This document shows positions 26,885 to 30,375 of a stretch of DNA of 64,000 bases, in pieces. The notes beneath the pieces are model-generated. The model was not told where the DNA came from. It searched no databases and was given only the letters and a program-made list of their open reading frames with translations. Each line of letters starts with the position of its first letter. Position 1 is the stretch's first letter. The stretch is from contig JAFLBQ010000005.1 of the NCBI GenBank assembly GCA_017303805.1, forward strand, positions 186,001 to 250,000. Reading direction: 5' to 3'. The DNA is from Cytophagales bacterium. GTDB lineage: Bacteria > Bacteroidota > Bacteroidia > Cytophagales > Cyclobacteriaceae. A program made the position numbers and the translations under genes.

Positions 26885-27175
26885 ATGATCCGAATTGTTC
26901 GCATGCATTTTACCGAGGCTGGGGTGGGAGAGTTTTTGGAGATTTTTGAAGCAAATAAAGTAGCCATTCGCAACTTTCCGGGGTGTACCCATTTGCAGTT
27001 GTTAAAAGATTTAGAAGATGCCAACTGTTATACTACGCTAAGCCATTGGGTTGATGCCCAAAGCCTTGAGAACTACCGGAAGTCGGACTTGTTTGGCACC
27101 GTGTGGGGGCGGGTAAAGACATTGTTTTCGGAACGTACACAAGCCTTTTCGTTGGTGAAATTTATTGAGTTGTGA
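26885..27175 (+). CDS. Antibiotic biosynthesis monooxygenase (ABM) domain protein
   Basis: 96 residues from ATG 26885 (MIRIVRMHFTEAGVGEFLEIF), the normal size of the ABM ferredoxin-like fold. The segments FEANKVAIRNFPGCTHLQLL and YTTLSHWVDAQSLENYRKS are typical. These small dimers are either heme- or quinone-modifying monooxygenases or stress proteins; the substrate is unknown. An upstream in-frame ATG at 26795 exists only because of the tandem repeat and was rejected. The gene starts 17 bases after the array. The tRNA-Leu promoter overlaps its stop codon region. Confidence 0.8.
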   Translation: MIRIVRMHFTEAGVGEFLEIFEANKVAIRNFPGCTHLQLLKDLEDANCYTTLSHWVDAQSLENYRKSDLFGTVWGRVKTLFSERTQAFSLVKFIEL

Positions 27176-27176
27176 T

Positions 27177-27207
27177 TTTGGCAAAAACCAAGTTTTACAC
27201 ATCTTTG
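27177..27207 (+). promoter_or_regulatory. Promoter of tRNA-Leu
   Basis: TTTG at 27177-27180, a 19-base spacer, and CATCTTTG at 27200-27207. This is the Bacteroidota form TTTG-N19-TAnnTTTG with one mismatch. It lies about 43 bases upstream of the mature tRNA 5' end. Confidence 0.55.
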
Positions 27208-27249
27208 CAACCCTGTTTGGATATTTTACCAGGCCAAACAGGTTTTTTT

Positions 27250-27331
27250 GCCTGAGTGGCGGAACTGGTAGACGCGCACGACTCAAAATCGTGTGCCTTC
27301 GGGCGTGCCGGTTCGATTCCGGCCTTAGGTA
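27250..27331 (+). tRNA. tRNA-Leu (anticodon CAA)
   Basis: 82 bases. Acceptor GCCTGAG pairs with CTTAGGT, including G.U pairs at positions 1 and 5. The anticodon stem CACGA/TCGTG encloses the loop CTCAAAA, giving anticodon CAA, which reads UUG. A long variable arm (TGCCTTCGGGCG) and the T arm GCCGGTTCGATTCCGGC complete a class II tRNA. Discriminator A; CCA is not encoded. It is followed directly by a terminator and then by a GIY-YIG remnant and a degenerate second copy of itself. Confidence 0.95.
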
Positions 27332-27333
27332 CA

Positions 27334-27371
27334 GAAAAGAGGCTTTCTTAATTAAGGGCCTCTTTTTATTT
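27334..27371 (+). terminator. Rho-independent terminator after tRNA-Leu
   Basis: GAAAAGAGGC at 27334-27343 pairs with GCCTCTTTTT at 27358-27367, followed by more T residues. It begins three bases after the tRNA discriminator. Confidence 0.8.
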
Positions 27372-27378
27372 TTAGACG

Positions 27379-27664
27379 ATGGCCTGTGTTTATGTACCCC
27401 ACTCCGATAAATTAGGCAGTTTTTATGTTGGGAGTTGCAAGGAATTTAAATTTCGTTTTGAGGATCACCTTAAAAGAGTTTATCCAAGCAGCTACACATC
27501 TAACTACAGACGACTGGCAATTATTCCTACTCTTAAAGAACCTGTCATGTGGCCAAGCGCATTCAATCGAGAGTCATATTAAGAAGATGAAAAGCAAAGT
27601 TTATATACAGAATCTGGCAAAGTACCACGACATGGTGACCAAACTTATAGAGAGATATGCCTAA
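27379..27664 (+). pseudogene. GIY-YIG nuclease, frameshifted
   Basis: Frame 1 from ATG 27379 gives the N-terminal GIY-YIG part: CVYVPHSDKLGSFYVGSCKE with RFEDHLKRVYPSSYTS. Near 27490-27510 the homology moves to the next frame, which gives TDDWQLFLLLKNLSCGQAHS and IESHIKKMKSKVYIQNLAKY up to a stop at 27662-27664. Joined, they form a typical single-domain GIY-YIG protein of about 95 residues as found in Bacteroidota. One base has been lost or gained, so the gene is probably dead. It starts 8 bases after the tRNA-Leu terminator, and its stop codon TAA is inside the 5' end of the tRNA copy. Confidence 0.8.
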
Positions 27665-27782
27665 GAGGCTCCCAATTCGCCATTTAGTAGTAGCGCGCGC
27701 GACTCAATTCCGATAACTATCGGGCCGTGTGCCTTCGGGCGTGCCGGTTCGTCCCGATGACCATCGGGACCGGCCTTAGGTA
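27659..27782 (+). pseudogene. Degenerate full-length tRNA-Leu copy with extra hairpins in its loops
   Basis: The whole tRNA-Leu at 27250-27331 is repeated in expanded form. 5' end GCCTAAGAGGC matches GCCTGAGTGGC; the 3' end CCGGCCTTAGGTAC is identical. The acceptor stem still pairs fully, and the original G.U at position 5 is now A-U. In the anticodon loop AAT is replaced by TTCCGATAACTATCGGGC (27708-27725). In the T loop ATT is replaced by TCCCGATGACCATCGGGA (27752-27769). The D region has about 10 extra bases. A normal anticodon loop no longer exists, so it cannot be a working tRNA. Confidence 0.85.
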
Positions 27783-27783
27783 C

Positions 27784-27813
27784 AAAAGACCTTCATTAGT
27801 TGAAGGTTTTTTG
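27784..27813 (+). terminator. Rho-independent terminator after the tRNA copy
   Basis: GACCTTCA at 27788-27795 pairs with TGAAGGTT, followed by a run of T. It holds the same position relative to the copy as the terminator after the true tRNA. From here to 27981 I see no gene; that stretch is the leader of the ABC permease gene, and it holds only a weak -7-like TACCTTGC. Confidence 0.75.
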
Positions 27814-27981
27814 TTTTTAGTTTGTACAGTTTTGATTCCGGTAATTGCTAATTGACCTATTCCGGACACGCCCACAACTTTTACCATTTTTTACTTCTCT
27901 TTAACACAAATCGCACGACAGCCGCTATACCTTGCGTAACCAACGCTCGTTACTGTAGTATTATAAAAAACCCACCACGCT

Positions 27982-30375
27982 ATGCTAAAGAACTACTTGC
28001 TTATTGCCTTACGCAACATCCGGCAAACCCCGCTTTATTCTTTTATTAACATTTTTAGCCTTGCAATTGGGTTGGCTGCCTGCCTTATAATTTATCTTTT
28101 TATTCGCGATGAGCGAAGTTTTGATGCCTTCCACACGCAGGCTCCGGCCATTTACAGGCTTGATGAAGTGCAGAATTTTACGGGCACCAATGTGCAAAAG
28201 GTTGCCTTAACTATGCCGGGTATGGGCCCAAATCTGCTGAAAGAATTTCCGGAAGTGGCCAACTATGCCCGCTTTATGTGCAGGTCAAGGCAATTGGTGG
28301 CCGATGGTGAAAAGAAATTCTTGCTGCCTTTCCTCGCAACTGTGGACAGTACGTTTCTGGAAATTTTTGATTTCGAAGTTTTGATTGGTGATCGGTCTAC
28401 AGCGTTGGACGAGCCGTTTGCCATGATGGTTACAGAAAGTACAGCTCTCAAATTTTTTAATTCTATAGAGGAAGCGATGGGCAAGTCGCTCACCTTTCGC
28501 GATAAGGAATATAAGATAACCGGAATATTGAAAGATGTTCCGGAAAACTCGCACATGAAGTTTGATGCGTTGGTCTCCATGAATACTGTAGTAAGTGAGA
28601 ACAAACAATTCAACGACCGCTGGGGTAGTAATTTTTTAAATACATATCTGGTGCTTGGGCCTAACACCGATGTAAAAGCATTGGAAGAAAAGTTTCCGGC
28701 TTTCTTAAGGCGCCACATGGATGATCCGCAGATTAACACCTATTATGTTCTATTCCTGCAAAAGTTAGAAGAGGTGCATCTCGCCTCTACCGATATTGAA
28801 CATGATTACAACAACTATCGCAAATTTAATGGTAAGTACCTCGATGTGTTTTCGATTGTAGGAATTTTCATACTTTTGATTGCCGGGGTAAACTTTATGA
28901 ATCTGAGTACCGCCCGTTCATCGCACCGCTGGAAGGAAATTGGCGTACGCAAAACCGTTGGGGCAAAAAAAATTCAATTGTTTGGTCAGTTTATCTTTGA
29001 ATCGTTGGTGTTGGCGGTAGTGGCACTTGCCTTTGCTGTTATTATTGATCTGGTAGCATTGCCACTGGTTAATGAGGTTATTCATCGGCAGCTTACGCTT
29101 TTGCCGTTACTTACGCCCCAGAACATTCTCTATATTCTCACAGCCACTTTTGCATTGGGTATCTGCACGGGTATTTATCCTTCCCTTTACATGACTGCTT
29201 TTAGTCTATCGCGGGTATTAAAAGGTGGTGAGATAGCCGGAAGCAAATCAGTCTTTCGATCGGGCCTGGTGGTGTTGCAATTTGGTTTAGCATTGGGTTT
29301 AATAGTAAGTACGTTCGTGGTGGTACAGCAATTGTCATTCATGCAAAACAAAGATCTGGGTTTTAATAAAGACCAGATGATGTTGGTGGACATGAATGGT
29401 GAAGCCAGTCAAAAGTTTGAGCAACTGCGAACTGAATTAAAGCGAAGCCCTTATATACTGGGGGTTACGGCCAGCGGCCAGCGGTTGGGTGAGAATTTTC
29501 ATCAATCTACATTTAAAATTAAGAGTGATACCGGGATTTACGAATTCGTTCCATCCAATGTAAATGTAGATTATGAATACCTGGATGTGTACGGCATTCA
29601 ATTAAAGGATGGGCGCAAGTTTTCGAAGGAGATAAGTACCGATAAAGACTTTGCATTTATTGTAAATGAATCGTTTGCCAAAGAATTAGGGTTAACAGAA
29701 ATTATTGGAACCCCGGCCGGTTTAGGTTGGTATGCGAATGATACCCTCGGTACTATTATTGGTGTGGCGAAAGATTTCAACTTCAACTCGCTGCATTATA
29801 AAATCAATACACTACAAATGTCGGTACACCCCGATTGGGGCTATGATGAAATGTCGGTTAAGATAGACGAGGTTCATGTGGAGGAAGCGATTGCCTATGT
29901 AAAAAGTGTATGGGAGCAACAGGTTTCATATCCGTTCGACTACTCGTTTTTGAATAGCCATTTCGAAAATCTTTATCGTTCGGATAAACAAATGAGTGCA
30001 GTGGTAACCATAATGGCAGGACTTGCCATTCTCATTTCATGTATGGGATTATTTGGACTAGCAGCTATTACTACCGCTCGCAAAACAAAAGAGATTGGCA
30101 TCCGGAAAGTGCTGGGCGCCTCCGAAGCGCAGATTACTGTCTTGCTCTCTCGTGATTTTGCGCTGTTGATTCTGATTTCGTTTCTACTAACCAGCCCCAT
30201 AACCTATGCGTTGCTGGTAAAATGGCTGGATAGCTTTGCTTACCGGGTGGAGATTAATCCACTTTTGTTTGTAGTGGGTGGTGTACTGGCGTTGGCTATT
30301 GCGTTGCTTACCATTGGCTATCATACAATCCGGTCAGCGAGAAGAAATCCTGTTAAAGCACTTAGGTACGAATAA
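27982..30375 (+). CDS. ABC transporter permease, MacB/FtsX family
   Basis: 797 residues. It begins MLKNYLLIALRNIRQTPLYS and has the standard duplicated layout of the Bacteroidota family: a first helix (about 21-41), a MacB-type periplasmic domain (about 45-240), three helices with FtsX motif MNLSTARSSHRWKEIGVRKT (about 309-328), a second periplasmic region (about 430-660), and three final helices with the matching MGLFGLAAITTARKTKEIGI (about 686-705). Such proteins act with a separate ATPase in lipoprotein or peptide efflux. No ATPase gene is adjacent. The family is often found as orphan copies next to two-component systems; one lies 600 bases downstream. Confidence 0.9.
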   Translation: MLKNYLLIALRNIRQTPLYSFINIFSLAIGLAACLIIYLFIRDERSFDAFHTQAPAIYRLDEVQNFTGTNVQKVALTMPGMGPNLLKEFPEVANYARFMCRSRQLVADGEKKFLLPFLATVDSTFLEIFDFEVLIGDRSTALDEPFAMMVTESTALKFFNSIEEAMGKSLTFRDKEYKITGILKDVPENSHMKFDALVSMNTVVSENKQFNDRWGSNFLNTYLVLGPNTDVKALEEKFPAFLRRHMDDPQINTYYVLFLQKLEEVHLASTDIEHDYNNYRKFNGKYLDVFSIVGIFILLIAGVNFMNLSTARSSHRWKEIGVRKTVGAKKIQLFGQFIFESLVLAVVALAFAVIIDLVALPLVNEVIHRQLTLLPLLTPQNILYILTATFALGICTGIYPSLYMTAFSLSRVLKGGEIAGSKSVFRSGLVVLQFGLALGLIVSTFVVVQQLSFMQNKDLGFNKDQMMLVDMNGEASQKFEQLRTELKRSPYILGVTASGQRLGENFHQSTFKIKSDTGIYEFVPSNVNVDYEYLDVYGIQLKDGRKFSKEISTDKDFAFIVNESFAKELGLTEIIGTPAGLGWYANDTLGTIIGVAKDFNFNSLHYKINTLQMSVHPDWGYDEMSVKIDEVHVEEAIAYVKSVWEQQVSYPFDYSFLNSHFENLYRSDKQMSAVVTIMAGLAILISCMGLFGLAAITTARKTKEIGIRKVLGASEAQITVLLSRDFALLILISFLLTSPITYALLVKWLDSFAYRVEINPLLFVVGGVLALAIALLTIGYHTIRSARRNPVKALRYE

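Follow-up and report, generated by a model that had tools for sequence, protein, structure and literature searches.

A decayed nuclease gene and a second, broken version of the tRNA are found directly behind a tRNA-Leu gene of a Cytophagales bacterium, and the locus raises the question of how such an arrangement comes about. The sequence-only reading of the window, the whole stretch of 64,000 nucleotides that was analysed, had described the order as tRNA-Leu, terminator, frameshifted GIY-YIG nuclease gene, full-length degenerate tRNA-Leu copy and terminator, with the stop codon of the nuclease lying within the 5' end of the copy. Each of these parts was recovered where it had been placed (Table 1), including the stop codon at 27662-27664. 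The intact tRNA-Leu(CAA) is presumed to be the host gene and putative target of the module.

Table 1. Features of the module beside tRNA-Leu(CAA), in window positions.
Feature	Position	Strand	Evidence
Intact tRNA-Leu(CAA)	27250..27332	+	ARAGORN; Rfam RF00005, 54 bits
Terminator-like stem-loop in the interval between tRNA and nuclease gene	27334..27367	+	Stem-loop scan
Decayed single-domain GIY-YIG nuclease gene	27379..27664	+	ORFs 27379-27582 and 27425-27664; tblastn with L149
Full-length broken tRNA-Leu copy	27659..27783	+	Alignment to the tRNA compared with shuffles
Anticodon-loop palindrome of the tRNA copy	27708..27725	.	Sequence TTCCGATAACTATCGGGC; CCGATNNNNATCGG match at 27710-27723
T-loop palindrome of the tRNA copy	27752..27769	.	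Sequence TCCCGATGACCATCGGGA; TCCCGAN4-8TCGGGA site
Terminator-like stem-loop 3' of the copy	27782..27814	+	Stem-loop scan

Three terminator-like stem-loops were detected on the two strands of 27100-27950, the third being the second in reverse, compared with a mean of 0.8 in shuffled sequence. The first frame of the nuclease gene (27379-27579) remained below the Pfam threshold for PF01541 when searched alone (E 0.017, 15.9 bits vs a cut-off of 22.6). An intact relative beside the tRNA-Leu(CAA) of a different genome (L149 in G060) matched the window gene in two frames upon tblastn, namely 27379-27504 in frame 1 (57% of 42 aa, E 2e-16) and 27422-27661 in frame 2 (49% of 80 aa, E 1e-23), which points to a single reading-frame change near 27505. 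Judged from its sequence, the window module is a relic in which the nuclease gene is broken. The tRNA copy aligned to tRNA-Leu with 72/78 aligned bases identical and a score of 83, the maximum in 500 shuffles being 26. It exceeds the length of the tRNA because of inserts, that is the two palindromes, each replacing three absent tRNA bases (by eye), and ~17 extra bases in the D arm. These palindromic hairpins, which break the copy, were absent from the earlier reading. The pattern CCGATNNNNATCGG had 2 matches in the 64-kb window, both within the tRNA copy, where 0.02 were expected. No tRNA was called in the copy by ARAGORN, nor by Rfam even at E <= 1. The + strand ORFs of at least 40 aa between tRNA and copy comprised the two frames of the GIY-YIG gene and the terminal part of an 81-aa frame crossing the tRNA, and none was of integrase size.

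PF01541 gave five matches in the genome of the window, two of them directly 3' of tRNAs besides the window module. The first (L002) follows tRNA-Leu(TAA), carries an early stop codon and is itself followed by the 3' part of that tRNA with palindromes, while the second (L005) is a truncated gene 3' of tRNA-Met with no recognisable tRNA copy; the tRNA-linked GIY-YIG genes of this genome are broken or truncated in 3/3 cases. Within the 4.29 Mb of the genome, TCCCGAN4-8TCGGGA occurs twice, in the window copy and in the copy of the L002 module. The palindrome as a very common genome repeat was rejected on the basis of 3 and 2 sites for two patterns in this genome.

The arrangement was investigated further in 58 genomes, comprising the window's own, 35 of its genus and 22 from other families of the order. 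All 58 had PF01541 matches above the cut-off, proteins with frames of ~600 aa included. A total of 97 loci was collected, 94 from GIY-YIG searches and 3 from a palindrome search, and the duplicate loci L007, L011 and L015 were excluded from counts. A custom profile identified 121 stretches in the 94 loci, which gave 110 copies after fragments had been merged and duplicates dropped. Among these 110, a same-strand tRNA was located at most 150 bases upstream in 43 and at most 150 bases downstream in 22, and 39 had neither a tRNA within 200 bases nor a neighbouring copy within 300.

At the level of the phylum, a profile built from 21 hand-chosen tRNA-linked proteins (A1) matched in 236/345 Bacteroidota genomes, with at most 15 candidates scored per genome; this number is an upper bound for the tRNA-linked kind because the profile can reach proteins of a clade without tRNA as well. 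From among the best-scoring matches listed, a non-random sample of 60 loci in 59 genomes and 16 family codes was taken, and a same-strand tRNA was found within 268 bases in 56/60 (median 60). Scanning named genomes with an intact window-type protein gave 13 loci. In the Cytophagales MAG UWPOB_CYTO2 (100% identical protein) the gene is located 3' of tRNA-Leu(CAA) and is flanked by broken copies, and in Mucilaginibacter hurinus it is likewise 3' of tRNA-Leu(CAA) with broken copies on both sides of the gene. Window-type genes follow tRNA-Asn in Flavobacterium (three), Salinimicrobium (two), an uncultured Flavobacteriaceae and a Bacteroidia MAG. No intact tRNA was present in the stretch examined for the Cyclobacteriaceae locus L256 and the second contig of the Bacteroidia MAG. 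Two Patescibacteria-type records matched the window-type protein weakly; in one Patescibacteria contig (L266) a GIY-YIG stretch is seen shortly 3' of an apparent tRNA 3' end before position 241 (by eye). GIY-YIG genes near tRNAs accordingly recur in the same genome, the genus, the order and the phylum, and Bacteroidota harbour a large and apparently undescribed family of genes for small nucleases, many of which adjoin tRNAs. The proposal of a general mobile unit in Cytophagales was borne out in that the arrangement recurs and fell short in its scope, as the family extends over the phylum Bacteroidota and occupies either side of the tRNA.

In order to describe the architecture of the modules, a gene was counted as linked when a same-strand tRNA lay within a chain limit of 320 bases, with U denoting a tRNA before the gene and D a tRNA behind it. 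Linkage was observed for 156/202 GIY-YIG copies in the fetched loci (111 U, 45 D). Beyond the gene, as seen from the tRNA, a copy of this tRNA scored at least 40 in 120/156, compared with 4/146 in a control in which the same tRNA was aligned to the region 900 bases further out; in 36/156 linked units the copy scored below 40. The own tRNA outscored every isotype of another amino acid in 119/156. As units of one array are not independent, counts of one unit per array are used where given, and a few labels of intact tRNAs are wrong since ARAGORN labels some broken copies as tRNA (L043, L066). With one unit per array (n=93 copies, 61 U and 32 D), U copies reached the 3' end of the tRNA in 60/61 cases, 9 of which also start at base 1-3, and D copies started at tRNA base 1-3 in 29/32 cases, 4 of which also reach the 3' end. 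D-type copies often consist of only the first 30-50 bases. Compared with the same isotype in other genomes, the tRNA of the own genome was the better match to the copy in 75 cases, tied in 7 and was worse in 4 (n=86).

The broken copies are characterised by hairpins that the tRNA lacks. A new stem of at least 6 was found in 96/120 copies vs 13.7/120 after shuffling (72/93 with one unit per array), and a stem of at least 7 in 77/120 vs 3.6, leaving 24/120 copies without a new stem of at least 6. Clean inserts numbered 57 in 47 loci; these were in the T loop in 18/29 U cases and in the D loop in 19/28 D cases, with insert sites TTC^GA in 13/20 T-loop and ATA^GA in 8/19 D-loop inserts. The insert was outside the loop expected for its side in 20/57, and of the inserts outside both the D and T loops, 9 were in the anticodon arm and 9 at other places. 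The copies look as they would if an insert had entered the tRNA at a marked site and had restored one half. As a test for promoters, TAnnTTTG was counted at most 60 bases upstream, and the signal was too weak to be of use: in D units the motif preceded the broken copy in 8/28 and the intact tRNA in 2/28, and in U units it was found in 18/60 before the tRNA and in 5/60 in the interval between tRNA and gene. In four loci of the Leu(CAA) group (L016, L038, L043, L092) the C-terminal GSLPD of the nucleases is encoded within the tRNA copy and its hairpin, the latter also providing the stop codon.

Tandem arrays were observed on both sides of tRNAs. Three units each are found 3' of tRNA-His (L046), 3' of tRNA-Leu(CAA) (L038, the third with a stop) and 5' of a tRNA-Ser (L080), two units 3' of a tRNA-Val gene each in L066 and L097, and five full units in each of L212 and L213. 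The units measure ~290-450 bases and are near-identical within arrays. Arrays of broken tRNA pieces in which no nuclease was matched were also present (L115, L116, L117, L119, L120, L121, L122 and L097), with hairpins in all except L122; the hairpin-broken arrays adjoin tRNA-Asp in two genomes, tRNA-Gly(CCC), tRNA-Asn, tRNA-Arg and tRNA-Cys, and in L097 four such pieces are located 5' of the same tRNA-Val that is followed by the two nuclease units. A tRNA-Thr has repeats of its own 3' end.

Palindromes were also found in other RNA genes. A palindrome TCCCGATA..TATCGGGA is located within RNase P RNA (RF00010), in a loop in L125:349-366 and in a joining region or linker in L127:479-496, and TCCCGAAAGTTTCGGGA is found near 1501 of L113 within a SAM riboswitch match (1422-1533). 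Palindromes of the same kind form part of terminator-like hairpins in L098 and L110 (by eye). Over 14 genomes, one palindrome pattern had 0-16 sites per genome compared with 0-3 for the reversed control. As palindromes in other RNA genes and hairpin-broken copies both occur without a nuclease, the palindromes are perhaps independent of it. The palindrome may be a separate loop-seeking repeat that is collected by the tRNA copies, or it may be needed by them. REP elements are small dispersed palindromes as well (PMC3733652); those of the present loci differ in location, being placed in loops where they occur in tRNA copies and being found also within genes for RNase P RNA and SAM riboswitches.

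The proteins of the family consist of a single domain of ~80-100 aa. Residues Y9, Y20, G22, R30, H34 and E68 (Y, YxG, R, H, E) were invariant in the 21 chosen tRNA-linked proteins. The best PDB matches were UPF0213 proteins (1zg2, 1ywl; E 3.5e-17) and SLX1 (E 1.4e-8), while I-TevI matched weakly (E 0.0024), and the ranking leaves room for structure-specific cutting of loop-forming DNA. Against TIGR01453, the model for group I intron-encoded GIY-YIG proteins, the best of 4 proteins scored 26.1 bits vs a cut-off of 56.05. No intron family was matched by Rfam in 10 loci at gathering thresholds or in window positions 26900-28100 at E <= 1, and an origin from a group I or II intron was rejected for this reason. 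Phage records were not matched by the window-type protein at E <= 1e-3; the His-type protein had 20 phage records, all under 60% identity, and the Ser-type protein 6 distant plasmid records. With these three types tried, phage or plasmid cargo was not found beyond such distant matches, and neither the window-type nor the His-type protein appeared as a SegB orthologue as judged by phage-record matches rather than by direct comparison with SegB.

In a tree of 97 proteins, the 28 rows without a tRNA within 200 bases formed one clade that is common in the same genomes, and many of the tRNA-linked proteins grouped by isotype (His, Phe, Met, Leu(CAA), Leu(TAA), Gly, Ala, Val and Ser(TGA)). A tree of 91 proteins, one per array, had 41 changes of tRNA label vs 68-78 in 300 shuffles; the 24 labels set a minimum of 23 changes, and the tree is built from few columns and has many unresolved forks. 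Asp, Ala, Asn and Leu were each split over this tree. One Ser clade covers five family codes, one Met clade four and one Val clade two. These trees suggest that protein clades tend to follow tRNA isotype. Target switches nevertheless occur, as genes of the window type accompany tRNA-Leu(CAA) in Cytophagales and Mucilaginibacter and tRNA-Asn in Flavobacteriaceae. In terms of substitutions, pN was lower than pS in 20/20 hand-chosen pairs of nuclease genes, and dN/dS was 0.06-0.15 in 5/6 pairs with unsaturated dS, the sixth value of 0.49 resting on 3 changes. These ratios indicate that the nuclease gene is under purifying selection.

The sequence-only reading had also suggested a comparison of the same tRNA-Leu locus in strains without the module, and such loci were found. 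The window tRNA-Leu was matched in 51/58 same-genus genomes. Out of 30 tRNA-Leu(CAA) loci, 8 had GIY-YIG sequence 3' of the tRNA, 1 had a broken copy alone and 1 was at a contig edge, while in the remaining 20 no GIY-YIG was detected at E <= 0.001 in the 900 bases searched, which lay 3' of the tRNA only; one of these 20 had two sub-threshold hits (E 0.035 and 0.7). Occupied and empty alleles hence both exist. Both checks that the sequence-only reading had named as able to refute it, on recurrence and on the empty locus, turned out in support of it. The 83-nt tRNA-Leu(CAA) is identical in 8 other genomes of the genus, and its sequence is the same whether the locus is occupied (two genomes) or unoccupied (seven). 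A base that would set occupied tRNAs apart, looked for as a means of self-protection, was absent from these 83. The region upstream of the window module aligned to the unoccupied loci of G031 (73.9%) and G008 (76.9%) as far as the tRNA. When 7 loci that were occupied or altered were compared with 21 others, no downstream flank aligned, and the exact boundary of insertion is therefore not defined at tRNA-Leu(CAA). Two pieces of this tRNA were observed away from the intact gene. The first half (98% identical) is located in G016:C102:67337-67382, ~1.2 kb from phoH, the usual neighbour of tRNA-Leu(CAA), the full tRNA of G016 being on a different contig, and in G008:C22:567000-567052 a 3' part lies ~111 kb from the intact gene in a pattern like that of an island remnant.

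A second locus, formed by tRNA-Gly and tRNA-Leu(TAA), allowed a better comparison of empty and occupied sites; Gly is empty and Leu occupied in the window's genome, and Gly is occupied in G012, G017 and G023. Upstream of the tRNA in the empty state there is a promoter-like stretch, and a similar one lies upstream of the broken copy in the occupied state. The tRNA-Gly element of G017 is 94.2/93.4% identical to those of G012/G023, with 69/69 copy bases the same, and its upstream flank could not be aligned to theirs beyond ~65 nt. Its dS was 0.22-0.25 (~9 silent differences) vs 0.83-1.01 for phoH, a core gene of the hosts, in the same genome pairs, so that the element is roughly four-fold less diverged at silent sites than the core gene; G012 and G023 are close relatives (phoH dS 0.22). 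From this divergence it is concluded that one tRNA-Gly element probably moved horizontally between species, a statement that concerns one element and one benchmark gene. The earlier suggestion of a mobile cassette that targets tRNA genes thus gains support, its mobility being inferred in general and seen in one probable horizontal transfer.

Relevant to this suggestion is SegB, a free-standing GIY-YIG homing endonuclease of T-even phages that is encoded beside tRNA genes (PMC13096335; T4 background in PMC2988022). SegB of phage T6 is reported to be required for tandem amplification of tRNA together with its own gene, with breaks proposed as the start, and co-localisation with tRNA is general among phage SegB homologues, with no isotype preference reported (PMC13096335). 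The cassettes in Bacteroidota are similar in that a GIY-YIG gene adjoins tRNA genes and tandem arrays are formed, which in the case of SegB depend on the enzyme (PMC13096335). They are unlike SegB in being found on bacterial chromosomes, in their single-domain proteins of ~80-100 aa, in clades that lean towards an isotype and in the hairpin-broken tRNA copy.

The observed architecture with intact catalytic residues and no intron, the association of clade with isotype, the insert sites, the arrays, the presence of empty as well as occupied sites, purifying selection, decay and the one transfer together argue for a homing-type cassette. With moderate confidence we consider the window module to be a decayed member of a family of GIY-YIG mobile cassettes that target tRNA genes, which would be selfish and SegB-like. 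We infer a cycle in which a single-domain GIY-YIG endonuclease, encoded beside one tRNA gene, would cut unoccupied alleles of that gene within a loop-coding stretch, that is TTC^GA in the T loop, ATA^GA in the D loop or a site in the anticodon arm. Recombination with an occupied copy would then install the nuclease together with a restoring tRNA half, leaving one tRNA intact and the displaced half in place as the copy. The palindrome at the junction may render the displaced copy uncuttable and so seal it, and breaks, in combination with repeated tRNA pieces, would drive the formation of tandem arrays, similar to what is reported for phage T6 SegB.

Several observations go against such a cassette. 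The intact tRNA is the same in occupied and unoccupied loci, although a nuclease would have to spare it. The single-domain proteins resemble UPF0213 and SLX1 most and the homing enzyme I-TevI weakly. There are also units without a copy or without a hairpin, inserts outside the expected loops, and an imperfect fit of clade to isotype.

The arrays could alternatively have arisen in place, by unequal crossing-over, with surplus tRNAs disabled by palindromic repeats and the GIY-YIG gene as an old passenger. Such stationary tandem duplication would account for the near identity of array units and for the nuclease-less hairpin arrays beside tRNA-Asp, Gly, Asn, Arg, Cys and Val, but the latter can equally be deletion derivatives. 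A passenger would moreover not be expected to be under purifying selection, to form clades that tend to follow isotype across families, to be linked to tRNA in 156/202 copies or to have moved between species, and we regard this explanation as improbable while still deserving some weight.

The isotype-leaning clades, a copy that tracks the host's own tRNA and the confinement of the alterations to loops would also be in line with a system acting at the level of RNA, similar to a toxin-antitoxin pair, in which the protein cuts or binds one isotype and the transcribed, hairpin-locked copy serves as an uncleavable decoy. We know of no GIY-YIG enzyme that acts on RNA. D-type copies limited to 30-50 bases and copies that exist without a nuclease gene speak against a decoy, and arrays and decay fit a selfish element better; this system is unlikely.

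We hold a function for the host to be similarly doubtful, whereby a structure-specific nuclease of the UPF0213 or SLX1 type has come to act at tRNA loci, in repair or in the control of tRNA gene dosage. The PDB matches favour it, as does the neighbouring clade of 28 rows without tRNA within 200 bases that is common in the same genomes. UPF0213 proteins have the same domain and a similar size, yet the tRNA-linked proteins differ from them in being accompanied by broken tRNA copies, and the 28 tRNA-less rows, putatively UPF0213, are a separate clade. SLX1 has a related GIY-YIG domain in larger chains of 183-324 residues. The patchy presence of the genes, exemplified by 20/30 tRNA-Leu(CAA) loci without a nuclease behind the tRNA, and their decay in the window's genome (3/3) are not what a host function would predict.

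Lastly, tRNA genes are landing sites for phages and islands and their 3' ends classic integration sites, but a copy that is merely the attachment-site scar of an integrated phage or island is very improbable, and was rejected as the main reading, given units of only ~290-450 bases, the lack of an integrase-sized ORF between tRNA and copy in the window, and hairpin-bearing copies on either side of tRNAs, the 5' side included.

The tRNA-targeting cassette therefore remains the favoured reading, and it was compared with what is already known. Tandem repeats 3' of a tRNA are familiar from the 178-bp repeats of E. coli tyrT (rtT/tpr), each with a piece of the tRNA 3' end; to our knowledge these have no nuclease gene and no hairpin inserts. 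Among the papers listed by a search of the openly available literature on tRNA-linked GIY-YIG genes in Bacteroidota, on free-standing homing endonucleases that act at tRNA genes and on palindromes in connection with tRNA, no title or start of an abstract described the modules. While tRNA-linked GIY-YIG homing genes are thus known in phages, the chromosomal cassettes of Bacteroidota are apparently undescribed.

A more far-reaching possibility, which we put forward tentatively and consider rather doubtful as a whole, is a tRNA-gene element common to the phylum. Lineages of tiny, structure-sensing GIY-YIG proteins would each attack one isotype at a fixed loop position, restore the gene and seal the displaced half with a palindrome from a pool of loop-seeking repeats. 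Palindrome and nuclease would then make up one system of transposition and immunity, and the nuclease-less hairpin arrays would be its non-autonomous offspring.

Many of the GIY-YIG genes and stray tRNA pieces of Bacteroidota genomes would find an explanation in this family. The precision with which palindromes are placed in loops points to some process of insertion. In addition, the cassettes form a natural set of GIY-YIG enzymes, each with a single predicted target, which would allow for direct tests of target recognition.
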